Source: Thermosipho melanesiensis BI429 (GTDB lineage Bacteria > Thermotogota > Thermotogae > Thermotogales > Fervidobacteriaceae). From it: DNA of 64,000 nt. A model generated the notes under the pieces. It was not told where the DNA came from. It did no database searches and worked only from the letters and a program-made list of their open reading frames with translations. How positions within the stretch are numbered: the first letter of the stretch is position 1; each line of letters starts with the position of its first letter. Below, in pieces: positions 47,689 through 59,570 of the stretch. The stretch is from positions 1,178,001-1,242,000 of the forward strand of contig NC_009616.1 in assembly GCF_000016905.1 (NCBI RefSeq), in the 5' to 3' direction. Made by a program: the position numbers and the translations under genes.

Positions 47689-48318
47689 CTATTTTAATTC
47701 TCTATCTATTTTAAATGTAAGGGACTTGAAAGAAAGAGTTATATCTACATCTTCAACAGGTAATTTTGTTCTTAATTTTATTGGTGCGAAATTTATAAAT
47801 CCTTTTATACCTAAATTTTCAAGTTTTTCAACCATCATTTGTGCAGCGTTTTCAGGGACTGCTATAATAGCAATTTCCACAATGTTTTTTTTGAAGAAAT
47901 CTTCAAGTTCTGAAATATGTTTAATGGTTAATTTTCCAATTTTTTTACCAACTTTTGACCTATCTGCATCAAAGATACCAATGATACTAAACTTTTCTTT
48001 TCTTAACCCTTCGTAGTTTACAAGTGCTGTTCCTATGTTACCTGCACCAATAACTATTACATTCCAGTACTTGTTCACACCTATTATTTTTTCAAGCTTT
48101 GTCATTAGTTCATATGTATTGTAACCAACACCTCGTTTTCCAAATTCTCCAAAGTAGGAAAGATCTTTTCTTACTTGACTAGATTTTATTCCTAGTCTTT
48201 CTGCTATATCTTTTGATGCCACAAAATCAATACCTTCATCAGATAACCTATTAAGGCATCTATAGTAAAGCCCAAGCCTTTTAATAACCGGTTTTGGAAT
48301 TTTTTTCTGATTCTCCAT
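47689..48318 (-). CDS. rex: Redox-sensing transcriptional repressor Rex
   Basis: A 209-residue Rex that senses the NADH/NAD+ ratio. The N-terminal winged helix (IAERLGIKSSQVRKDLSYFGEFGKRGVGYN) is followed by a Rossmann fold with VIGAGNIGTALVNYEG near residue 92. Its start follows GGAGGGG. A Rex operator 15-33 bases upstream suggests autoregulation. Likely targets in this window include NAD-linked redox operons, though no matching site was seen at the other promoters. Confidence 0.95.
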   Translation of the reverse strand: MENQKKIPKPVIKRLGLYYRCLNRLSDEGIDFVASKDIAERLGIKSSQVRKDLSYFGEFGKRGVGYNTYELMTKLEKIIGVNKYWNVIVIGAGNIGTALVNYEGLRKEKFSIIGIFDADRSKVGKKIGKLTIKHISELEDFFKKNIVEIAIIAVPENAAQMMVEKLENLGIKGFINFAPIKLRTKLPVEDVDITLSFKSLTFKIDRELK

Positions 48319-48333
48319 ATTATCCCCTCCTAA

Positions 48334-48351
48334 ATGTGAAGTAAGTCACAA
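48334..48351. promoter_or_regulatory. Rex operator upstream of rex
   Basis: ATGTGAAGTAAGTCACAA has arms TGTGA/TCACA with a 6-bp centre, matching the Rex consensus TTGTGA-N6-TCACAA at all but one position. It lies 15 bases before the rex start. Confidence 0.85.
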
Positions 48352-48610: not shown

Positions 48611-49093
48611 ATGAATTTCTCAGTTTTTATTGTGACCTATTTCACATGGGTGTTGCTAACAGGTTATAACGATATTTCGGAATTGTTAGTTGGTTTTTTA
48701 GTATCACTGGTTATTTCCGTTGTATTTAAAAGGTATTATAGGATTAAGTTTGATGGTTGGTTTTTAGTGAAGATTGTAAAGTTTTTGTTAATATATCTAC
48801 CTATTTTCATTTGGGAGATGATTAAAGCAAACTTTGATGTAGCAGCACGTGTTTTAAATCCGAAACTTCCTATTAATCCAGGATTTGTAAGAGTTAAAAC
48901 GGAATTAAAAAAAGATACCTCAAGGCTTTTCTTGGCAAACTCAATTACATTAACTCCTGGAACTTTGACTTTAGATGTAGAAGAAGATACGTTGTATATT
49001 CACTGGATAGATGTAAAAGCAAAAAGTGCAGATGAAAGAAGAAGACATATTTCCGAAAAGTTTGAAAAAATTTTAAAGGGGGTATTTGAATGA
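48611..49093 (+). CDS. MrpE/MbhA-like membrane subunit
   Basis: A 160-residue subunit of the sodium/proton antiporter module, with two or three N-terminal membrane helices (FIVTYFTWVLLTGY, LLVGFLVSLVISVVF, FLLIYLPIFIWEM) and a cytoplasmic part (FLANSITLTPGTLTLDVEEDTLYIHWIDV) typical of MrpE. It is the first gene of the 14-gene operon. ATG 48611 follows AAGGAGGGAG. The next gene overlaps by 4 bases. Confidence 0.93.
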   Translation: MNFSVFIVTYFTWVLLTGYNDISELLVGFLVSLVISVVFKRYYRIKFDGWFLVKIVKFLLIYLPIFIWEMIKANFDVAARVLNPKLPINPGFVRVKTELKKDTSRLFLANSITLTPGTLTLDVEEDTLYIHWIDVKAKSADERRRHISEKFEKILKGVFE

Positions 49094-49347
49094 ATTATTT
49101 ACAATATATATATTTTACACTAGTAGGTTTAGGAGTTTTTTTATCTTTTTTGAGAATATTATTTGGACCAACAAGTGCAGATAGAGTAGCGGCTCTTGAT
49201 ACATTAAATGTTGTTCTAACTGGAACTATAGTTTTTTTGGCGCTTATATTTAAAAATGGATTATATCTTGATATTGCTTTAGTTTATGGATTACTTTCTT
49301 TTGTTGAGACGGTTGTTATTGCACGCAATTTGGAGGGGAAAAAATGA
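49090..49347 (+). CDS. MrpF/MbhB-like membrane subunit
   Basis: An 85-residue protein with three membrane helices and the MrpF pattern RILFGPTSADRVAALDTLN near residue 22, then GLYLDIALVYGLLSFVETVVIAR. It overlaps both neighbours by 4 bases (ATGA), the coupling seen through most of this operon. Confidence 0.93.
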   Translation: MNYLQYIYFTLVGLGVFLSFLRILFGPTSADRVAALDTLNVVLTGTIVFLALIFKNGLYLDIALVYGLLSFVETVVIARNLEGKK

Positions 49348-49664
49348 TGATATTAGGATACTTACTTATAGTAATAGGTGCATTTTTTTATTTTTTAGGT
49401 GGATTAGGGATTTTTAGGATGCCTGATGTGTATAACAGGCTTCAGGCAGGAACTAAAGCTACAACGTTAGGTTCCTTTTCAGTTATTTTAGGTGTTGGAC
49501 TTGTGAATTTAGAATTTTTACCAAAAGCTTTGGTTATAATTGCGTTTATTGCCTTAACTAATCCAGTTGGTAGTTCTGTTTTAGCAAGGTCTGCATATTT
49601 AAAAGGAATTAAGCCTACAGATAAAACCCAAGTTGATGAATATAAGGGTGGTGAAAAAGAATGA
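49344..49664 (+). CDS. MrpG/MbhC-like membrane subunit
   Basis: A 106-residue protein of the MrpG/PhaG family, with two or three helices and the signature GGLGIFRMPDVYNRLQAGTKATTLG near residue 22. A charged tail (KPTDKTQVDEYKGGEKE) faces the cytoplasm. ATG 49344 or 49347 are both possible starts; the first gives the 4-base overlap. Confidence 0.93.
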   Translation: MMILGYLLIVIGAFFYFLGGLGIFRMPDVYNRLQAGTKATTLGSFSVILGVGLVNLEFLPKALVIIAFIALTNPVGSSVLARSAYLKGIKPTDKTQVDEYKGGEKE

Positions 49665-49900
49665 TGTACTTAACAGTATTTGTTGGAATTTTAATGATAG
49701 TTTCTGCTATTTATGCTGTTGAAGCTAAAAAGGTGCTTGATTCATTCATTGCGTTGTCATTACTAAGCTTATTATCTGTATTTTTGTTTATTGTAATGAA
49801 AGCTCCAGATGTTGCAATTACGGAAGCTTCTGTTGGAGCCGGATTGACTACAGCTGTCTTAATACTTGCTTTGAAAAGATTGGGTGGTGATAGAGAATGA
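49661..49900 (+). CDS. MbhD-like membrane subunit (MrpA C-terminal DUF4040 part)
   Basis: A 79-residue protein with three helices: YLTVFVGILMIVSAIYAV, SFIALSLLSLLSVFLFIVM and APDVAITEASVGAGLTTAVLILAL. The APDVAITEASVG segment is typical of the MrpA C-terminal domain that Mbh/Mbx complexes carry as separate small subunits. It overlaps both neighbours by 4 bases. Confidence 0.92.
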   Translation: MMYLTVFVGILMIVSAIYAVEAKKVLDSFIALSLLSLLSVFLFIVMKAPDVAITEASVGAGLTTAVLILALKRLGGDRE

Positions 49901-50616
49901 GAAGAGTATTCTCATTGTTAATTGTTACTGGATTGTTGATATTTTTTGTTAGTTCTTTATCGGCGATACCGGAATATGGAAAGGCAAGGTTATCAAAAGT
50001 TTCTAAAGCGTATATAAATAAAAATGTGAAAGGTGAAACAGGAGAAGTTGAGTTTGAAAAATCTAAAAATTTGGAAGATGGTGCTGCAAACGTTGTAACT
50101 TCAATTGTTGTTGATTATAGATCATTTGATACCTTAGGTGAAGTTACAGTTTTATTTACATCTGCTTTAGGTGTAGGGATAATATTAAATGGAATTAAAA
50201 AGAAAACTTTTGGAAGAACACCTAACTTTATCTTAAGGATTTCCGTTGGAATTTTATTACCTTTAATCTTATTGTTTGGTGCTTACATCTTTATCCACGG
50301 TCACTTGACACCTGGAGGGGGTTTTCCGGGAGGTACTATAATTGCAGCTGGAATATTGCTCCTTTACCTTTCCAATGAAGAATTTAAACTCGGAAAAGCT
50401 TCAAAATTTGTGGAAAGTGTTGCAGGAAGTGTTTACGTAATTATTGGAATTATAGGGTTGGCAATAGGTGGATATTTCTTAATTAACTTCCTCCCGACAG
50501 GAGTTTTAGGTGCTTTATTTAGTGCGGGAATTATTCCAATTGTTTATGTGGTTATAGGATTTAAGGTTGGTGCAGAATTATCAGGTATAATTGCCGATTT
50601 ACACGGGGAGGGATAA
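49897..50616 (+). CDS. MbhE-MbhF fusion (MrpA-C terminal/MrpB-like subunit)
   Basis: A 239-residue protein that joins two subunits normally encoded separately in archaeal Mbh. Residues 1-100 resemble MbhE (VVTSIVVDYRSFDTLGEVTVLFTSALGVGIIL). Residues 105-239 resemble MbhF/MrpB (GAYIFIHGHLTPGGGFPGGTIIAAGILLLYLS). A 40-residue soluble loop (SKVSKAYINKNVKGETGEVEF) lies in the first part. No frameshift or stop marks the join, so the fusion is real as written. It shares one base with the next gene. Confidence 0.88.
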   Translation: MRRVFSLLIVTGLLIFFVSSLSAIPEYGKARLSKVSKAYINKNVKGETGEVEFEKSKNLEDGAANVVTSIVVDYRSFDTLGEVTVLFTSALGVGIILNGIKKKTFGRTPNFILRISVGILLPLILLFGAYIFIHGHLTPGGGFPGGTIIAAGILLLYLSNEEFKLGKASKFVESVAGSVYVIIGIIGLAIGGYFLINFLPTGVLGALFSAGIIPIVYVVIGFKVGAELSGIIADLHGEG

Positions 50617-50960
50617 TGATGATATACTATATTTCATTTCTTTTGATAGGTATAGGTATATACGGTCTTCTAACTCAAAAAAACCTTTTTAAATACTTGG
50701 TTTCATTGACTATTATAGATACAGCAATCAACTTGTTTATCATTTCTATTGGATACATAAATGGTAAAGATGTGCCTATCTTTTCAAAATATACAAAAAC
50801 GGCAAATTTTGTTGATCCTCTACCACAAGCTTTGGTGTTAACGGCTATTGTTATAGGTGTAGGTACATTAGCTTTAGGTACATCACTTTTAATAAGAACG
50901 TATGAGAAATATAGTACATTAGACGTTGAAGAAATCGCCCAAAAGGAGGCGGAAGAATGA
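50616..50960 (+). CDS. MrpC/MbhG-like (NuoK-type) membrane subunit
   Basis: A 114-residue NuoK/MrpC-family protein with three helices: YYISFLLIGIGIYGLL, LVSLTIIDTAINLFIISIGY and DPLPQALVLTAIVIGVGTLALGTSLLI. The PLPQALVLTAIVIG segment is diagnostic. The C-terminus is acidic. Starts ATG 50616 and 50619 are adjacent. Confidence 0.94.
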   Translation: MMIYYISFLLIGIGIYGLLTQKNLFKYLVSLTIIDTAINLFIISIGYINGKDVPIFSKYTKTANFVDPLPQALVLTAIVIGVGTLALGTSLLIRTYEKYSTLDVEEIAQKEAEE

Positions 50961-52309
50961 TAGCTCTTTTAGTTGCTATTCCATTAATCTCTGCGTTTTT
51001 ATTCGTGCCATTTAAAGATAAGTCAAAATACATATTACCATTTGTTATTTTGTTGGATTTAATAGTGTTATTTAACTTAGCTCCAGGTACAATTTCAGAA
51101 ATGGGTGGCTGGAAAGCACCTTTTGGAATAGTTTTGGTACTTGATTCTGCAAGTTTTTACACAGTACTAGTTGTAAATATTATCTTTTTATTGATTTCAT
51201 TTATGCCGCAAATCGCAGAAAGAAACTATTCAATAATTTTATTAATACTTTTAGGAGCGTTAAATGGCTTAATTCTTACAGGGGATATTTTTAATTCTTT
51301 TGTATTTTTGGAAATTACTGCAGCAGCTGGATATATAATTGCATCTACTAAGAAAAATTATTATGGAGCATTTAAATACCTAATTATTGGTGGAATTGCT
51401 GGTGGATTTTATCTTCTTGGAGCAATTTATGCATATTTAGGTACCGGCTCATTGAATTTAGCCGATATAGCGATTAATATAAATCATTCTATTATGCCAT
51501 ATGTAGCACTTTTGTTATTTGTTGGACTAGCAGTTGAGGCAAAAGTTTTGCCATTAGCAGGATGGGTTCCAAGTGTTTATGCATCAGGTTCATCTTTAAC
51601 ACCAACGGTTTTAGGTACCACTGTTACTTTTTCTGTGATTTATCTCTTGGGAAGGATTTTTATTACTGTATTTAATGGTTATTTTTTAGATGTAATTTAT
51701 GTATTTGGACTTTTAACTCTTATTCTTGCCGAAATTGCCGCATTTAGACAAGAAAAATTGTTAAAAGCTCTTGCTTTTTCTTCAATTGCACAGGCAGGTT
51801 TAGTGTTAAGTGTTATTTCTCTTAATACCTTTAGTGCGTTAAATGCAGCATATTTTCATCTCTTAAATGATGTAACCGCAAAATTAGTTTTATTTATTGT
51901 AGCTGCAAGTGTTTCTGGAAGTTTTATGAAGAATAAAACGTTAGGGATTACATTTAGTATTGCTTCCTTTTCTTTAATAGGATTCCCATTGTTTGCTGGT
52001 TTCAGGAGTAAATTGTTAATTTTAAAAAGTGCTTTTGAGAAAGGTGACTATTTATTACCTATACTTTTGTTGATAGCTACTGTGATTGAAATGGCGTATC
52101 TTCTGAAGTGGAATGTAAAATTTTGGTATAGTAATGAAGATATAAATAAGGAAATTCCATGGAATATAATGTTACTGGTGTTAATAGTTGCATTGTTTAT
52201 CATTTATATAGGAATATTCCCAGAAATATATTTAAAAATTTCCAGAAGTATAGCGGAAGGTTTGATAAATTCAGAGGCATATGTAACGACTATTCTGGGA
52301 GGGATGTAA
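50957..52309 (+). CDS. MrpD/MbhH-like antiporter subunit
   Basis: A 450-residue NuoL/M/N-type transporter with about 14 helices. The ion-channel helices include SFVFLEITAAAGYIIAST, VEAKVLPLAGWVPSVYASGSSLTPTVLG and ALAFSSIAQAGLVL; the Glu in FLEITA and Lys in EAKVLPLAGW are the usual functional charges. It is followed directly by a second, longer member (52310), a pairing seen in Mbx/Mbs complexes. ATGA overlap with MrpC. Confidence 0.94.
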   Translation: MIALLVAIPLISAFLFVPFKDKSKYILPFVILLDLIVLFNLAPGTISEMGGWKAPFGIVLVLDSASFYTVLVVNIIFLLISFMPQIAERNYSIILLILLGALNGLILTGDIFNSFVFLEITAAAGYIIASTKKNYYGAFKYLIIGGIAGGFYLLGAIYAYLGTGSLNLADIAININHSIMPYVALLLFVGLAVEAKVLPLAGWVPSVYASGSSLTPTVLGTTVTFSVIYLLGRIFITVFNGYFLDVIYVFGLLTLILAEIAAFRQEKLLKALAFSSIAQAGLVLSVISLNTFSALNAAYFHLLNDVTAKLVLFIVAASVSGSFMKNKTLGITFSIASFSLIGFPLFAGFRSKLLILKSAFEKGDYLLPILLLIATVIEMAYLLKWNVKFWYSNEDINKEIPWNIMLLVLIVALFIIYIGIFPEIYLKISRSIAEGLINSEAYVTTILGGM

Positions 52310-54154
52310 ATGATTTCTTTGGTTAATTTGATATTACTTTTTTTGTTTGGATCTTTAATTTCATATATTCTCACAAAAGTCAACAAAGTAATAGGTGCAA
52401 TTTTCAATTTTCTTTTAACAGGATATGCCCTTTTTGTTGTGTGGAATGTTGAAGTTGGTACTACTGAGAAGTTGTTTAGTATTTTTGAAGGTTTAGAAAG
52501 TGTATTGAAAGTTACCTTTTTGGGGAAATTTTTTGCTTTAATTAGTTTGATAGTTATTTCATTTGTTGCGTTTTTTGTACTTGAATGGATAAAAAAGAAA
52601 AATTTGAATGCTGCAGCTTTTAATCTTTTTTATATGTTAATGATTGCGGGAGTATTAGGTGTATTCTTTTCAAATGACTTACTTACACTTTATGTTTTTT
52701 GGGAAATTGCCGTTTTAGGTTCGTTTTTGATTGTTCCTATGGGAAAGGAAGATTCTAAAAAAGCTGCGATTATATATGTTGTTATTAGCGGAATAGGAAG
52801 TTATCTATATCTTTTTGCAACATTTTCATTATATTTTAGGTACGGAGTACTTGATTTTAAAGGAGTTTCTCAACATTTATTGAATGAGCCTTCAAATATT
52901 TATAAATGGTTTGTGGTGTTGTTTATTGCTAGTGCAGGTATTGCAAAAAGTGGTTTGTTCCCGCTTCATACATGGCTTAGGATAACACATGGAAATGCTC
53001 CTGATGCATTTAGTGCGGTACTTTCAGGTCAACTTGTAAAAATGGGTTCTTATGTTTTGGCAATTTCTCTTGCTGTGTTTCCAACAACACAGTTATTTAA
53101 TGCATTTTATATGGGAGTACCTTTGATAAATTACATTTTAATATGGCTTGGTAATATTTCAATAATTATAGGTACCTTTATGGCAATTAGACAAAATGAT
53201 ATGAAACAATTGATAGCTTTTTCTTCAATTGCAAATGGAGGTTATATACTTGTTGGTTTAGGTGTTATGAATTCTACGGGCTTTGCTGGTGGTTTATTCC
53301 ATGTATTTAATCATGCAATTGCTGCTGCTATGATATTTTTGTCTTTTGCTGCGGTTGTTTATAGGACAGGTACTACAAAAATAGATGAGATGGGTGGGTT
53401 AATTTGGAGGATGCCATGGACCTTTGTGATTTATCTTGTAGGTATAATTTCCCTCGCAGGTATTCCACCAACAAGTGGTTTTATTTCAAAATGGATGATT
53501 TTTAATGCCCTTCTTACCAAAGGTATGTTTCTAACTTTGACAATAACATTTATTGGGAGTATTGGTTCATTTTTATATGTTTTTAGACCATTGGCAGGGG
53601 TATTTTTGGGGCAGTTAAAAAAGAAACATTATGAGATTGAAGAAGTATCGATTATAATGTTGATACCAATGTTACTTTTAGTTTTTCTTACGTTGATTAT
53701 AGGAATTTATCCTAAACCATTATTAGACATGATTTCATCTGTTGAGCAAGAACTTGGAATAAAGGCCATAGAATATAGTGGAACAATTATAAAAACTAGT
53801 TTAGGGCAGTGGAATACTTTAACAGTATTTAATATGTTTGTTGTTGGTTTCATTATTGCTGTAATTCTTTATTTAATTTTCCCAAATGGAAAGAAGGTTA
53901 AATTAACAGATCAGTATACTGGAGGGGAATATTTGTATAATTACGATCTTTATCACTATGCAACGGGATTTTATAAATTTCTAGAGAGACTTTATGACAA
54001 ACATCCCTCGTTTGAAAAATTATATGAAATGTTAGCTAACTTTTTTAGAAGTATGGGTGGAATTGTTGTAAGCCTCGTATATAAACCAGGTCCAAGTGGT
54101 TATGTATTTTGGTTTTCTATTGTAATCCTCATATTATTTTGGGTGAGGTGGTAA
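52310..54154 (+). CDS. Second MrpD/NuoL-like antiporter subunit (MbxH'-like)
   Basis: A 614-residue NuoL-type protein, longer than the first. Core helices include LYVFWEIAVLGSFLIVPMG, KSGLFPLHTWLRITHGNAPDAFSAVLSGQLVKMGSY and IAFSSIANGGYILVGLG. A C-terminal extension of about 110 residues carries YTGGEYLYNYDLYHYATGFYKFLERL and ends in a last helix. Two antiporter-like subunits favour the Mbx/Mbs type over Mbh. Its ATG directly follows the previous stop. Confidence 0.94.
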   Translation: MISLVNLILLFLFGSLISYILTKVNKVIGAIFNFLLTGYALFVVWNVEVGTTEKLFSIFEGLESVLKVTFLGKFFALISLIVISFVAFFVLEWIKKKNLNAAAFNLFYMLMIAGVLGVFFSNDLLTLYVFWEIAVLGSFLIVPMGKEDSKKAAIIYVVISGIGSYLYLFATFSLYFRYGVLDFKGVSQHLLNEPSNIYKWFVVLFIASAGIAKSGLFPLHTWLRITHGNAPDAFSAVLSGQLVKMGSYVLAISLAVFPTTQLFNAFYMGVPLINYILIWLGNISIIIGTFMAIRQNDMKQLIAFSSIANGGYILVGLGVMNSTGFAGGLFHVFNHAIAAAMIFLSFAAVVYRTGTTKIDEMGGLIWRMPWTFVIYLVGIISLAGIPPTSGFISKWMIFNALLTKGMFLTLTITFIGSIGSFLYVFRPLAGVFLGQLKKKHYEIEEVSIIMLIPMLLLVFLTLIIGIYPKPLLDMISSVEQELGIKAIEYSGTIIKTSLGQWNTLTVFNMFVVGFIIAVILYLIFPNGKKVKLTDQYTGGEYLYNYDLYHYATGFYKFLERLYDKHPSFEKLYEMLANFFRSMGGIVVSLVYKPGPSGYVFWFSIVILILFWVRW

Positions 54155-55038
54155 TGATGACTGTGCTTAAAATAATAGCAGTATTAATGACAGGTTTTTT
54201 TGTTGGTCTAACTTTAGAAGGTGTTGCAAGAAAAGTGATGGCGAGAATTCAAAGAAGATATGGACCGCCTTGGTATCAAAATTTCATAGATGTGTTTAAG
54301 GTGTTATCAAAAAGGGGTATTTCTCATGGTTGGATTTTTGACTTTGGAATTTTAATGGCATTGGGGGGCGTTATTGCAACTTTATCATTTGTTCCCCTTG
54401 GGAATTTGGTGGCATTTCCTGGGTTGGATAACATATTTATTATTGTTTATTTATTTGCAGTTGGTGCACTAGGTATGGCAATGGGAATGGTAGGATCCGG
54501 AAATCCTAATGCAAGTATTGGAGTTGCAAGGGCCTTAACACAAATGTTGGGGTATGAGATACCATACATGCTTTCACTTTCTGCTGTAATGTTTTATTAC
54601 AAAACGGCCTCTGTATCGAAACTTATGATATCTCAGCAAGATACATGGACACTGGTTAAAATGCCAATAGGGGGTATAGTTGCGTTTATATCTCTATTAG
54701 GAATGTTAGGGAAAAAACCATTCGATACGCCAATTGCTCCAGCAGAGATTGCTTCTGGACCTATGGTAGAGTTATCTGCAAAATATATGGGACTTTTAAT
54801 GTTGATGCATACATTTTCAGTTTTTGTTGAAGTTAGTTTGTTCGTAGATGTTTTTTTGGGTGTAAGTAATTATTGGACGTTTTTAATAAAGTTTACAGTT
54901 GTTTGGGTGTTTGCAACTATGATTTCTTCAGTTTTGCCGCGATTTAGAATAGAACAAGTTGTCAAGTTTTACTGGAAAGTTCCATTGGGATTGGCATTTT
55001 TGCAAGTATTATTTGTACTACTTGGATGGGTATTTTAG
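54154..55038 (+). CDS. NuoH/MbhM-like membrane subunit
   Basis: A 294-residue NuoH family protein linking the peripheral and membrane arms. It has about eight helices and the conserved segments GVARKVMARIQRRYGPPWYQNFIDVFKVLSKRG, ALTQMLGYEIPYMLSLSAV and KKPFDTPIAPAEIASGPMVELSAKYMG, the quinone-entry-like loop retained as EIASGPMVE. ATG 54154 overlaps the preceding stop; ATG 54157 also fits. Confidence 0.95.
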   Translation: MMTVLKIIAVLMTGFFVGLTLEGVARKVMARIQRRYGPPWYQNFIDVFKVLSKRGISHGWIFDFGILMALGGVIATLSFVPLGNLVAFPGLDNIFIIVYLFAVGALGMAMGMVGSGNPNASIGVARALTQMLGYEIPYMLSLSAVMFYYKTASVSKLMISQQDTWTLVKMPIGGIVAFISLLGMLGKKPFDTPIAPAEIASGPMVELSAKYMGLLMLMHTFSVFVEVSLFVDVFLGVSNYWTFLIKFTVVWVFATMISSVLPRFRIEQVVKFYWKVPLGLAFLQVLFVLLGWVF

Positions 55039-55049
55039 GAGGTGGTTGT

Positions 55050-55592
55050 ATGTCAATAAACGAGAGAAATTTATGGGAAAAGATAGCAGATAAATTGAGA
55101 AGTAAGTCTCTATGGATGTTGCATTATTGTACAGGGTGTGGAGCAGTGGAATTACCACCAACAATGACATCAAGGTTTGATATGGAGCGTTTTGGAATGG
55201 GGCCTATGGCTACTCCAAGGCAAGCTGATATTTTGTTTATTACAGGTTATTTAAGTGCAAAAACTCTTAGGAGAGTTATTTATACATATGAGCAGATGGC
55301 TGAGCCAAAATATGTGATTGGTTTTGGTTCTTGTACTTTAAATGGAGGAATTTATTATGATTCTTATGCTACTATAAACAAATTAGACTATTACATTCCC
55401 GTTGATTTATACATTGCAGGTTGTATGCCAAGACCTGAGGCATTATTGGAGGCATTTAACAAATTGATGAGAATGATTAGGAGTGGAGAGGCAAATGGAT
55501 GGAAAAAATACAGAGAAAATTATGAATGGTACAAACAAAATCAAATAAGATCTCTCGGGGAGGTGTTTATCCATGACGAGTTTCATGAGTGA
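55050..55592 (+). CDS. NuoB/MbhJ-like 4Fe-4S subunit
   Basis: A 180-residue small-subunit homologue with one proximal-type 4Fe-4S cluster. Ligands are YCTGCGAVELPP (two), GSCTLNGG and AGCMPRPEALLEA. The DILFITGYLSAKTLRRVIYTYEQM helix is usual. ATG 55050 is chosen behind AGGAGGTGG; the open frame continues upstream into nuoH's stop. It should take electrons from the NuoI-like module and pass them to the NuoD-like active-site region. Confidence 0.94.
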   Translation: MSINERNLWEKIADKLRSKSLWMLHYCTGCGAVELPPTMTSRFDMERFGMGPMATPRQADILFITGYLSAKTLRRVIYTYEQMAEPKYVIGFGSCTLNGGIYYDSYATINKLDYYIPVDLYIAGCMPRPEALLEAFNKLMRMIRSGEANGWKKYRENYEWYKQNQIRSLGEVFIHDEFHE

Positions 55593-56103
55593 TGTAATAA
55601 AGAAAATAGAAAAAATTTTCAATGATATTGAGATAGTAGAAATAGATAGTAGAGAAATAAAAATAAACGTTAAACCCGAGAGTATCGTTTCAATCCTTTC
55701 TATGTTGAAAGGAGAGGGATATTCACATTTGTCGTTATTAACAGCGGTTGATTGGATTGAAGAGAATAAATTTGAATTGGTATATATTCTATTCTCTTGG
55801 AAAGATGGCAGTAAAATAATTGTTTCAACAAAAATTGAAAGGGGAAATTCTCAGTTTGTTACAGTAAAACATCTTTGGAGTATAGCTAGATATTATGAGA
55901 GAGAAATCCATGAATTTTTTGGCATAAATTTTGAAGGAAATGATGATATGAAGCCTTTGTTTCTCGAAAACTGGGATGATATACCACCTCTTAGGAAAGA
56001 TTTTGATCCAATGGAATATTCTAGGAAAAAATTTCCAGATAGGGAATATAAGAAAGATGTTATTCATGAAGCAAAAATAATAAGAGGTGATTTAAATGGG
56101 TGA
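55573..56103 (+). CDS. NuoC/MbhK-like subunit
   Basis: A 176-residue NuoC-type protein: EGYSHLSLLTAVDWIEENKFELVYILFSWKDGSKIIVSTKI, then SIARYYEREIHEFFGINFEGNDDMKPLFLENWDDIPPLRKDFDP. The HEFFGINFEGN and PPLRKDF segments define the family. ATG 55573 follows GGGGAGGTG and overlaps the nuoB end by 20 bases; ATG 55585 is a weaker alternative. It overlaps nuoD by 8 bases. Confidence 0.94.
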   Translation: MTSFMSDVIKKIEKIFNDIEIVEIDSREIKINVKPESIVSILSMLKGEGYSHLSLLTAVDWIEENKFELVYILFSWKDGSKIIVSTKIERGNSQFVTVKHLWSIARYYEREIHEFFGINFEGNDDMKPLFLENWDDIPPLRKDFDPMEYSRKKFPDREYKKDVIHEAKIIRGDLNG

Positions 56104-57199
56104 AGTAAAACTCTTTTTTGGACCTAACCATCCTGGAATGCACGGAAATTTTAGTGTCCATATGTATGTGGAAGGAGATACAGTAGTTAAAGCAAGACCT
56201 TTACCAGGCTTTCTTCATAGGGGATTTGAAAAATTAATGGAAAGAAGACTTTGGTATCAAAATTTAGCCTTAATTCCGAGAATTTGTGTTCCAGAACCTG
56301 ACATAAACGAGTTATGTTATGCACTAGCAGTAGAAAAAATTGCAAAAATAGATGTGCCAGAAAGGGCTCAATGGATTAGAATGATTGTTCTTGAGCTTGC
56401 AAGGATAGCAAATCATCTATGGAGTTTTTCAGGTATAGGTGGTCCCATAGGACTTTATACAGGTTCTTTTTGGGGAACAGCAGATAGAGATAGGATATTG
56501 GATATATTTGAAAATTTAACTGGTGCAAGAGTATACCATATGTATATAGTTCCAGGAGGAGTGAGAAAGGACTTAACACCAAAAATTGAGAAAATGATTT
56601 TAGAGACGTTAGACTACATTGAATCACGTTTGCCTGATTATGAAAAGTTAATATTAAAAAATAGGATAGTACATACAAGATTGAAAGGTATAGCAAAACT
56701 TGACAGAGAAACGGCTTTAGAAATGGGAGTGACAGGTGTCGGGTTGAGAGCCACAGGTGTTCCATATGATATTAGAAAGGTTGATCCATATTTGTTTTAT
56801 GATAAAGTCGACTTTGAAGTTCCCTTTTCAACAGATGGTGATGCGTTTGCGAGAGTGTATTTGAAATTTAGGGAAATTTTCCAAAGTATAAAGATAGTGA
56901 AACAAGCACTTGAAAAAATGCCGGTGGGTAAGGTGAATACGCCAATAAGTGAAGGTAGCGCTTTAAGATTTAGGGTACCAAAGGGTCAAGCATATGTTCA
57001 TATAGAATCTACAAGAGGGGAATACGGATATTATATGGTATCAGATGGTGGTGAAAAACCATACAGAGTAGTAGTTAGAGGTGCATCTTATCCACAAACA
57101 TTTATTGGAGTAGAAAAATATTTACCTGGTACCCGTATTGAAGATGTACCAATCTGGCTTTCCACAATGGATGTTTGTGCTCCCGAGGTAGATAGATAA
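56096..57199 (+). CDS. NuoD/NiFe-large-subunit homologue lacking half the Ni ligands (MbxL-like)
   Basis: A 367-residue homologue of NiFe hydrogenase large subunits and NuoD. Of the two CxxC motifs that bind NiFe in hydrogenases, the N-terminal one reads RICVPEPD (only the first Cys) near residue 63, and the C-terminal one reads DVCAPEVDR (one Cys) at the very end. So it cannot bind a normal NiFe centre. GIGGPIGLYTGSFWG and LRATGVPYDIRKVDPY are kept. This pattern matches the Mbx/Mbs sulfane-sulfur reductases. It overlaps nuoC by 8 bases. Confidence 0.93.
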   Translation: MGEVKLFFGPNHPGMHGNFSVHMYVEGDTVVKARPLPGFLHRGFEKLMERRLWYQNLALIPRICVPEPDINELCYALAVEKIAKIDVPERAQWIRMIVLELARIANHLWSFSGIGGPIGLYTGSFWGTADRDRILDIFENLTGARVYHMYIVPGGVRKDLTPKIEKMILETLDYIESRLPDYEKLILKNRIVHTRLKGIAKLDRETALEMGVTGVGLRATGVPYDIRKVDPYLFYDKVDFEVPFSTDGDAFARVYLKFREIFQSIKIVKQALEKMPVGKVNTPISEGSALRFRVPKGQAYVHIESTRGEYGYYMVSDGGEKPYRVVVRGASYPQTFIGVEKYLPGTRIEDVPIWLSTMDVCAPEVDR

Positions 57200-57214: not shown

Positions 57215-59065
57215 ATGAAAAATAATACAATTTCAAAAAAGGAATTCTTTTCACCAATAAGTGCTTGGAAATTTCTCTTAAAAAAACCAGTTACTATAAA
57301 AGTTCCGTATGTGAAAAGAGAAGCTGCCGAAAGATACAGGGGCTTTCACATAAATGATTGGAATGAATGTATAGGGTGTGGAACATGTTCTAAAATTTGT
57401 CCAACTGATGCAATAAAAATGGTTGAAATTGAAGATTTGCCACAACAATATGGAGAAAAACCCCAAAGACCTGTTATTGATTATGGAAGATGCTCATTTT
57501 GTGCAATGTGTGTTGATATATGTACAACTGGTTCACTGAAAATGACTAGGGAATATGTACATATTTCGCCAAATCCAGAAGATTTTATCTTTGCCCCTAC
57601 TGAAGGGGGAATTCACGGGGTAAAAGATGTTCCAGTAGGTTGGACTAGAGATGATGATTCTGATCTTTTAGAACTAGAACGTGTTGAAATGGGAATGATA
57701 GAAGGGGAAGAAAGGTCAAAATCGTTTATAGAATATGTAAAGGGATACAGTAAAGAACAGGCAATGCACGAAGCTTCAAGATGTGTTGAGTGCGGAATAT
57801 GTACTGATAGATGTCCTCAGCATATGCAAATTCCAGAATATATAAAAGCTATTTGGAAAGATGATTTAAAAGATGCATTAAGGTGGCTTTTAAAGGGTGA
57901 TGAAAGTAATAATATGGTTGGTGCCAACCCATTTTCAGCGGTATGTGGAAGGGTTTGTACTCATAAATGTGAGGAAGCGTGTTCACTAGGAAATCGTGGA
58001 GAGGCAATAGCTATTAGATGGTTGAAAAGATATATTGTGGACAATGTACCTGATTATGAAAAAGTTCTTGAGGTAAATACTGTGAAAAAAGATAAAAAAG
58101 TTGCCATTGTTGGTTCAGGGCCTGCAGGTCTTTCTGCGGCGTACTTTTTGGCAACCCTGGGATATGAAGTTGAAGTGTTTGAGTCATTATCGAAACCCGG
58201 TGGGGTTATGAGGTATGGAATACCGTCCTATAGGTTGCCAGATGAGGCTTTAGATAAAGATATTGCATTTATTCAAGCATTAGGTGTAAAAATCCATGTA
58301 GGTGTTTCTGTGGGTAAAGATATTTCTCTTGAAAAATTGAGGGAAAAATACGATGCCGTATTTGTTTCCACAGGATTTACCCTTGGACGTTCTACAAAAG
58401 TTCCTGGAACAGAACATGAAGATGTGATTCAAGCTCTTCCACTTTTGAGAGAAATAAGAGATTATCTAAGAGGAGAAGGACCAAAGCCGAAGATACCAAG
58501 AAGTTTGGTAGTTATTGGTGGAGGTAACGTTGCAATGGATGTGGCACGTTCAATGGCAAGACTTCAAAAGATGGAATATGGCAAAGTCGATGTGAAGATA
58601 ACATCTCTTGAAAGAACATATGAAGAAATGCCAGCAGATATGGAAGAAATAGAAGAGGGGTCAGAAGAAGGAGTGGCATTTTATCCTGGATGGGGGCCGA
58701 TGAAAATAGTAATTGAAAATGATAAGGTTAAAGGTGTAGAGTTGAAGAAATGTTTGGAAGTGTTTGATGAAAATGGAAGATTTAATCCAAGGTTCGATGA
58801 AAGCAATAAAATGGTTTTAGATGCGGATATGGTAGTAGAGGCAATTGGGCAAGCCCCAGATTATGATTATTTACCTGAAGAAGTTAAATCTAAGATTGAA
58901 TTTGTAAGAGGAAGGTTGCTAACAAACGAATATAGACAAACGTCTGTTGAATGGTTATTTGCAGGTGGAGATATTGTGCATGGGCCAGATATAATTCATG
59001 CAGTAGCTGATGGATACTGGGCCGCAAGAGGTATTGATAAGTTTTTAAGTAAAGGGGGGAAATAG
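57215..59065 (+). CDS. Fusion of a two-cluster ferredoxin (NuoI/MbhN-like) with a GltD/NfnB-type flavoprotein
   Basis: A 616-residue soluble protein. Residues 45-120 hold two 4Fe-4S sites (CIGCGTCSKICP and CSFCAMCVDIC), like MbhN/NuoI. From about residue 185 a GltD/NfnB-like part begins with CVECGICTDRCP and later cysteines (CGRVCTHKCEEACSLG), then the FAD fold VAIVGSGPAGLSAAYFLATLGYEVEVFE and the NAD(P)H fold VVIGGGNVAMDVARSMARL, and ends AGGDIVHGPDIIHAVADGYWAARGID. It would let NAD(P)H or NAD(P)+ exchange electrons with the membrane complex. ATG 57215 follows GGAGGTG. Confidence 0.92.
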   Translation: MKNNTISKKEFFSPISAWKFLLKKPVTIKVPYVKREAAERYRGFHINDWNECIGCGTCSKICPTDAIKMVEIEDLPQQYGEKPQRPVIDYGRCSFCAMCVDICTTGSLKMTREYVHISPNPEDFIFAPTEGGIHGVKDVPVGWTRDDDSDLLELERVEMGMIEGEERSKSFIEYVKGYSKEQAMHEASRCVECGICTDRCPQHMQIPEYIKAIWKDDLKDALRWLLKGDESNNMVGANPFSAVCGRVCTHKCEEACSLGNRGEAIAIRWLKRYIVDNVPDYEKVLEVNTVKKDKKVAIVGSGPAGLSAAYFLATLGYEVEVFESLSKPGGVMRYGIPSYRLPDEALDKDIAFIQALGVKIHVGVSVGKDISLEKLREKYDAVFVSTGFTLGRSTKVPGTEHEDVIQALPLLREIRDYLRGEGPKPKIPRSLVVIGGGNVAMDVARSMARLQKMEYGKVDVKITSLERTYEEMPADMEEIEEGSEEGVAFYPGWGPMKIVIENDKVKGVELKKCLEVFDENGRFNPRFDESNKMVLDADMVVEAIGQAPDYDYLPEEVKSKIEFVRGRLLTNEYRQTSVEWLFAGGDIVHGPDIIHAVADGYWAARGIDKFLSKGGK

Positions 59066-59066
59066 T

Positions 59067-59570
59067 ATGTCTATAGAAGATATTTTAAAGGTTGCGGAAA
59101 ATTTTGAAATAGAGGGATTCAGATTTTATGGAGAAAAAAAAGAAGAAATAAGAAGTAAGTTGGCAAAAGAGGTGCTTGATTTTTTGCAAGAAATGGAAAA
59201 GGAGCATACAGAATATATAAGGAATTTAAGAAAGGCTATGGAGAATAATGAAAAAATACCGGTTGCAGATGTTGATAGAACAAAGAATTTTTTCGAGGAA
59301 AGATTAAAAGGCCAAGCAATTGAAGAGACACCTTCAGAAGATGATTTGAAAGATTTATCCATTTTACGAATGGCACTTTTGATTGAAAAAGATTTTGTAA
59401 ATTATTATGATAAAGCATCAAAAAAAGCAGAAGAAATAGGAAATTTAGAGTTAAAAGAAATACTTGAAAATTTAAGATCCTGGGAAGAGTCTCATGTAAA
59501 ACTTGTTGAAGAATTAATTCAAAGAATTTATGATAAAAATAGGTTAGATTTGGGATTTTATCCCTTTTAA
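59067..59570 (+). CDS. Ferritin-like/rubrerythrin-type diiron protein
   Basis: A 167-residue four-helix protein of the rubrerythrin-like ferritin group without a rubredoxin domain. Helices carry the metal pattern FEIEGFRFYG, LQEMEKEHTEYIRNL, ALLIEKDFVNYYDKA and SWEESHVKLVEELI (EExxH-type pairs). It lies 1 base after the fusion flavoprotein and ends the operon, so it may receive electrons or guard the complex against peroxide. Its role within the operon is a guess. Confidence 0.85.
   Translation: MSIEDILKVAENFEIEGFRFYGEKKEEIRSKLAKEVLDFLQEMEKEHTEYIRNLRKAMENNEKIPVADVDRTKNFFEERLKGQAIEETPSEDDLKDLSILRMALLIEKDFVNYYDKASKKAEEIGNLELKEILENLRSWEESHVKLVEELIQRIYDKNRLDLGFYPF

Follow-up and report, generated by a model that had tools for sequence, protein, structure and literature searches.

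The gene at positions 57215-59065 of the window (the whole 64,000-nucleotide stretch of Thermosipho melanesiensis DNA that was analysed) raises the question of how electrons enter the membrane complex whose last subunit gene it is. In discussions of complex I, membrane-bound sulfane sulfur reductase (MBS, formerly MBX) figures as a ferredoxin-driven relative that resembles its ancestor. An earlier note on this DNA had described the archaeal N subunit of such complexes as small, and it is (MbsN, 208 aa; MbhN, 139 aa). MbsN of Pyrococcus furiosus MBS (6u8y) is a separate ferredoxin-type subunit, whereas the MbsN encoded here forms one chain with a GltD/NfnB-like flavoprotein.

The fused subunit and its operon

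The open reading frame is intact, with an ATG start and no internal stops. The parts of the gene are as follows.

57215-59065, + strand: MbsN-GltD fusion, 616 aa, proposed electron-input subunit
57242-57589, + strand: aa 10-125, ferredoxin domain of the MbsN/NuoI type with the medial and the distal [4Fe-4S] cluster (6u8y_N match)
57590-57715, + strand: aa 126-167, linker joining both halves, well ordered in the model (pLDDT 82-94)
57716-58048, + strand: aa 168-278, Fer4_20 domain, two [4Fe-4S] clusters (Pfam and alignment)
58025-58027, + strand: codon of K271, at the position of StnC K170 and the NfnB Glu
58094-59002, + strand: aa 294-596, two Rossmann folds, for FAD and for NAD(P)H (Pfam and alignment)

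The earlier note had the ferredoxin part running on into a further cysteine-rich domain, an FAD fold and an NAD(P)H fold. These details were correct, as judged by Pfam (Fer4 dicluster at aa 45-110, Fer4_20 at 168-278, Pyr_redox_2 at 294-596) and by PDB matches. In the PDB, aa 1-155 scored highest against MbsN of P. furiosus (6u8y_N, E 3.5e-32); NuoI of complex I and MbhN ranked well below it. Residues 165-613 matched NfnB/NfnL (5jca_L, E 6e-76; T. maritima NfnB 4ylf_B, 4e-74). An ordinary GltD-family N-terminal domain, the alternative that the note had raised, is excluded, since the first clusters are of the MbsN/NuoI type and the GltD part has two clusters of its own. The cluster ligands are eight invariant Cys in the ferredoxin domain (C52, C55, C58, C62, C93, C96, C99 and C103) and C190, C193, C196, C200, C244, C248, C252 and C256 in Fer4_20. 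All 16 are invariant across 100 fusions, bar single alignment gaps and one substitution; those of the ferredoxin domain depart from this by one alignment gap. Four [4Fe-4S] clusters are therefore expected between FAD and MbsJ. The N-terminal region of MbsN is a contact site with other subunits (PMC7684303), and the equivalent stretch of the fusion is conserved in the alignment.

An AlphaFold2 model built on an 82-sequence alignment gave a single confident body (pLDDT 91.3, pTM 0.86) in which only residues 1-35 were weak. Among the 50 best PDB fold matches of this model, none spanned both halves. The family PRK13984/NF010590 of NCBIfam matches residues 1-614 with 1194.7 bits, against a cut-off of 946. 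This end-to-end match to a "putative oxidoreductase" indicates that the architecture has already been catalogued, without a named function or complex. In AegA/YgfT (PRK12769, PRK12809), too, a GltD domain is preceded by ferredoxin clusters, but the fusion scores far under their cut-off (242.6 of 1003) and they are not MbsN-type. To our knowledge, AegA/YgfT are not part of an ion-pumping complex. Judged by its sequence, the gene is a real fusion of an MbsN-type electron-entry subunit with an NAD(P)H-binding flavoprotein.

Thirteen genes make up the operon (MbsA-E, G, H, H', M, J, K, L, fusion), and the fusion comes last among those for subunits. It directly follows two antiporter-like genes and the genes for NuoH-, NuoB-, NuoC- and NuoD-like subunits.

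48611-49093, + strand: MbsA (MnhE-like), by synteny and ORF
49090-49347, + strand: MbsB (MrpF-like), by synteny and ORF
49344-49664, + strand: MbsC (MrpG-like), by synteny and ORF
49661-49900, + strand: MbsD, by synteny and ORF
49897-50616, + strand: MbsE (MrpB-like), by synteny and ORF
50616-50960, + strand: MbsG (MrpC-like), by synteny and ORF
50957-52309, + strand: MbsH antiporter-like subunit (Proton_antipo_M)
52310-54154, + strand: MbsH' antiporter-like subunit (domain and family scans)
54154-55038, + strand: MbsM, NuoH-like (NADHdh, E 6e-60)
55050-55592, + strand: MbsJ, NuoB-like, with the three proximal-cluster Cys of MBS (6u8y_J, E 9e-71)
55585-56103, + strand: MbsK, NuoC-like (Complex1_30kDa, E 2e-29)
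56096-57199, + strand: MbsL, NuoD-like, NiFe ligand set incomplete (6u8y_L, E 4e-113)

P. furiosus MBS has the same 13 subunit types, and its J and L subunits are the closest by sequence. MbsJ aligned with 6u8y_J without a gap over 168 aa, whereas MBH differs in length. MbsJ shares the three-Cys proximal cluster of MBS: it carries a CTGC motif and lacks the CC-type proximal-cluster motif of complex I, and Cys 31, 96 and 126 (numbered from 55047) are kept in 82-83 of 83 sequences. C25 of P. furiosus MbsJ is a fourth, non-ligating Cys (PMC7684303), and its equivalent is Gly in 25 of the 83. MbsL scored 381 bits against 6u8y_L, 255 against Thermus complex I and 160 against MbhL. Like P. furiosus MbsL, it keeps one Cys of each NiFe pair: C64 and C361 are present and the partner of each is replaced by E/D in 92/92 sequences, none of which has either pair complete. 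The equivalent of the quinone-site Tyr87 of NuoD is Val65 in all 92. That of NuoD His38 is H16 in T. melanesiensis and was found in only 26 of the 92.

An energy-converting [NiFe] hydrogenase (MBH/Ech) is excluded, as the four-Cys NiFe ligand set is missing, and the features of MbsJ and MbsL exclude respiratory complex I. Since the ligating Cys of MbsJ are kept and the NiFe pairs are incomplete, the operon encodes, on these alignments, an MBS-type complex. Thermotogota have, as far as we know, no quinones, which also fits this assignment. The placement of the gene in an Mbs operon by the earlier note thus holds, as the 13-gene set matches Pyrococcus MBS and not MBH or complex I.

Two variants of operon layout were observed elsewhere. 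MbsH and MbsH' seem to be joined in a single ORF of about 1045 aa at L070, L074, L076, L077, L089 and 17 other loci. The order is permuted at a spirochaete locus (L051), with M-J-K-L-N ahead of the Mrp-like and H/H' genes.

Distribution of the fusion

Among the 103 genomes of Thermotogota, 70 gave an MbsL match of 376 bits or more. The MbsN part of the fusion adjoins MbsL in the same 70/70 genomes and in none of the remaining ones; all members of one family (f2) lack both. In Thermotogota, the mbs operons showed no further gene of the MbsN/NuoI-like kind. The MbsN-plus-linker part then served as the query against 84,980 prokaryotic genomes, and the 80 best loci were taken. The fusion is encoded at 79 of them, and the remaining locus is cut by a contig end. 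Because the query contained the linker and only the best 80 loci were taken, unfused bacterial MbsN could exist lower down. These loci cover about 16 bacterial phyla besides Thermotogota, nearly all within mbs operons. By record title, the phyla are Bacillota, Spirochaetota, Mycoplasmatota, Pseudomonadota, Bacteroidota, Chlorobiota, Cloacimonadota, Acidobacteriota, Aminicenantes, Fidelibacterota, Calditrichota, Caldifarciminota, Sumerlaeota, Bipolaricaulota, Fermentibacterota, Macinerneyibacteriota and Thermotogota; many records are metagenome-assembled genomes, so single assignments may be binning errors, above all one "Thermoplasmata" contig.

MbsL lies in the same locus in 72 of the 79 fusions; two loci begin at a contig end and five hold the fusion alone. 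In four of these five genomes, all of sulfur bacteria, MbsL lies elsewhere in J-K-L clusters. No other NuoI-like gene was found beside the clusters in these four genomes, some of whose contigs are short, so the distant fusion is the likely N subunit there. The fifth, Halanaerobium saccharolyticum WC1 (L050), kept the fusion and MbsL was not detected in its genome; the whole operon is present in a second strain of the species (L049).

An assembly or frame artefact or a chance fusion is excluded by the intact ORF, by the pairing with MbsL in Thermotogota and by the recurrence among the best 80 loci. Within Thermotogota, the complex with the fusion is the standard form, and many other phyla of Bacteria have the fusion too. 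The standing bacterial version with an NAD(P)H module that the earlier note had guessed at therefore exists, and is far wider than guessed. MBS, NfnB and StnC are already known. The fusion and its role as the usual input subunit of bacterial MBS are apparently new, no description of them having been found in open-licence papers; an earlier mention elsewhere is possible.

Electron donor, flavin type and nucleotide

We consider it likely that the fusion serves as the N subunit in an MBS-type complex of bacteria, one with a built-in NAD(P)H dehydrogenase module and a linear electron path to MbsJ. NAD(P)H, predicted to be NADH in T. melanesiensis, would hand a hydride to FAD, and single electrons would then pass through the two GltD-part clusters and the two MbsN-part clusters to the proximal cluster in MbsJ. 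Sulfane sulfur (polysulfide) would be reduced at MbsJ, and this redox step would be coupled to H+/Na+ transport through the antiporter-like membrane arm. The FAD would act as a plain non-bifurcating input flavin, like that of StnC of the Stn transhydrogenase. In favour of such a sulfur-reducing complex, mbxA, the first MBX gene of T. maritima, was upregulated 4.36-fold with sulfur (PMC9431562). Since the same fusion is found in Thermotogota and in many other phyla, the bacterial complex probably takes NAD(P)H as a donor besides ferredoxin, and is not fed by ferredoxin alone.

NADH (about -0.3 V) is only slightly more negative than polysulfide. NADH alone would therefore leave little energy for ion pumping, which counts against the linear NAD(P)H path; mixed input, a high NADH/NAD+ ratio and reverse use in sulfur oxidisers are all possible. 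This small driving force favours an alternative that we regard as possible, though rather unlikely, in which ferredoxin is the main donor and the GltD module is a second port exchanging electrons with NAD(P)+/NAD(P)H. The subunit would then double as a ferredoxin:NAD(P)+ oxidoreductase, with the same anatomy as in the linear NAD(P)H path and a difference in the donor that matters. The MbsN half is fully conserved, and its archaeal counterpart in MBS accepts ferredoxin electrons (PMC7684303). For MBX of T. maritima, the published model takes reduced ferredoxin to be the donor, which also counts against NAD(P)H as the main input (PMC9431562). However, an invariant fusion with all cluster ligands over about 17 phyla would be hard to explain if ferredoxin sufficed.

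The earlier note had also raised confurcation of ferredoxin and NAD(P)H. We find it improbable that the FAD bifurcates or confurcates with joint use of both, in spite of the NfnB-like fold and of R340, which is invariant in the fusions and aligns with NfnB R201, the Arg that hydrogen-bonds flavin N5. The ligand at the flavin-proximal cluster is Glu in NfnB and Lys (K170) in StnC; StnC retains the Arg equivalent to R201, and its authors concluded that its FAD is non-bifurcating (PMC10482914). The Lys equivalent to K271 was present in 99/99 fusions, as in the NfnABC-type structures 9bov and 9n5u, whereas Glu was found in the T. maritima and P. furiosus NfnB proteins and in separate NfnB genes beside some fusions. 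Moreover, an NfnA-type partner for the second branch is absent. The T. melanesiensis genome contains one NfnA-like gene adjoining NfnB, one PyrK-like gene and no others, so a search for an orphan NfnA as a hidden partner gave no unpaired gene. In Thermotogota family f5 (L035-L037), a complete nfnA-nfnB pair lies directly 3' of the fusion and has its own Glu-type NfnB. NfnA- and NfnB-like genes also adjoin the fusion at a Spirochaeta locus of the NADPH-type clade. The presence of K271 and the lack of a spare NfnA make the linear path from NAD(P)H through FAD and four [4Fe-4S] clusters to MbsJ the most likely one, and confurcation is disfavoured.

NfnB of NfnAB (T. maritima 4ylf, P. furiosus 5jca) has the fold and the flavin-near Arg in common with the fusion and is about 37% identical to it across the GltD part. 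It is, however, a bifurcating protein with a Glu ligand at its proximal cluster, and it depends on NfnA, a partner that the fusion lacks. The NADPH-input subunit StnC/NfnABC (Stn transhydrogenase, Nfn-Bfu; 8oh5, 9bov, 9n5u) has a GltD-like FAD and two-cluster input module in which Lys (LKRF/LKRY) stands at the cluster next to the flavin. StnC is linked to a NuoG/FdhF-like part and supplies a bifurcating core of the HydBC-like kind, whereas the module of the fusion would feed the MbsN domain and an ion-pumping complex and has an NAD-like motif in most members. Neither a NuoG/FdhF-like part in the fusion nor HydBC-like partner genes beside it were found by domain scan and inspection of neighbours. 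We propose that the GltD domain of the fusion may work like that of StnC, though the fusion is not a StnC.

It is very improbable that the fusion works on its own as a soluble NAD(P)H:ferredoxin-type oxidoreductase and is merely co-transcribed with the complex: GltD-plus-ferredoxin proteins such as AegA exist, and the five loci away from mbs genes, above all the WC1 genome, speak for it and, in the case of WC1, against the fusion being an N subunit, but the fusion stands in the N-subunit place in the operons seen, keeps the N-terminal subunit-contact stretch of MbsN and has no second MbsN/NuoI-like gene to replace it in Thermotogota or in the detached cases, so that without it the electron chain to MbsJ would break.

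The arginines of a YRR motif bind the 2'-phosphate of NADP in the GltD-like fold family. YRR stands at the nucleotide motif in NfnB, StnC-like NfnABC and GltD, and in 23 of 97 fusions. In the other 74, including those of T. melanesiensis and T. maritima, this site holds two uncharged residues followed by Glu (Gln in one), an NAD-type feature; in T. melanesiensis the residues are S464-L465-E466. A tree of the 97 fusions showed that the motif changes once (SH-aLRT 99) and separates two clades. One is predicted to be NADH-type, with T. melanesiensis and T. maritima, and the other NADPH-type, with family f5 of Thermotogota. The Arg (R467) that follows the Glu in the T. melanesiensis subgroup may allow a relaxed nucleotide specificity.

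Sulfur bacteria and neighbouring genes

Among the best 80 loci, the fusion was also found in Thiothrix, Beggiatoa-like cells, Thiohalocapsa, Thiodiazotropha and a tubeworm symbiont. We tentatively suggest, as a claim that may well fail, that behind the fusion stands a respiratory enzyme widespread in bacteria, an NAD(P)H:sulfane-sulfur oxidoreductase that pumps ions and comprises NADH- and NADPH-type clades, with a role in sulfur oxidisers as well. If so, sulfur-oxidising Gammaproteobacteria and animal symbionts (Thiothrix, Beggiatoa-like, Thiohalocapsa, Thiodiazotropha) could, under anoxia, use NADH to respire the sulfur that they store, or the complex could run in reverse in these Gammaproteobacteria, with the ion gradient driving NAD+ reduction with sulfide. 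In the Riftia symbiont, a putative "Mrp-Mbx" complex is reported to be co-expressed with the reductive TCA cycle (PMC11636981). This co-expression, and the occurrence in sulfur bacteria and symbionts, make the direction of the complex a question of interest. For Thermotogota, whose models assume ferredoxin, the complex would offer a candidate enzyme of energy-conserving sulfur reduction; in sulfur-storing bacteria and symbionts it would be a candidate for a part in sulfur metabolism. If bacterial MBS has its own NAD(P)H dehydrogenase, gained independently of the NuoEFG module of complex I, pyridine-nucleotide input was acquired at least twice among complex I-like machines.

The operon is flanked by the following features.

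47689-48318, - strand: rex-like gene (NADH/NAD+-sensing repressor, named by sequence), divergent from the operon
48335-48350: exact TGTGA-N6-TCACA palindrome, 5' of rex
48631-48646: exact TGTGA-N6-TCACA palindrome, at the start of mbsA
59067-59570, + strand: ferritin-like/rubrerythrin-like protein, 3' of the fusion and often its operon partner (domain scan)

The divergent arrangement of rex is conserved in relatives. The two palindromes are the only copies in the 64 kb, where 0.01 were expected. Both are conserved in relatives, the one at the start of mbsA being weak evidence since it sits in coding sequence that is itself conserved. The divergent rex and the palindromes would fit control of the operon by NADH/NAD+. 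Rex beside the operon failed as a mark of the NADH-type clade, as rex also lies upstream in the NADPH-type loci L074, L085 and L110.

A ferritin-like/rubrerythrin-like gene lies 3' of the fusion in 31 of the 75 loci with a callable downstream ORF, in several phyla, and adjoins the fusion even where the mbs genes lie elsewhere (L057, L063, L065). At L106, L111, L116 and L120, a small gene with a CBS-domain-like start was observed 3' of the fusion.
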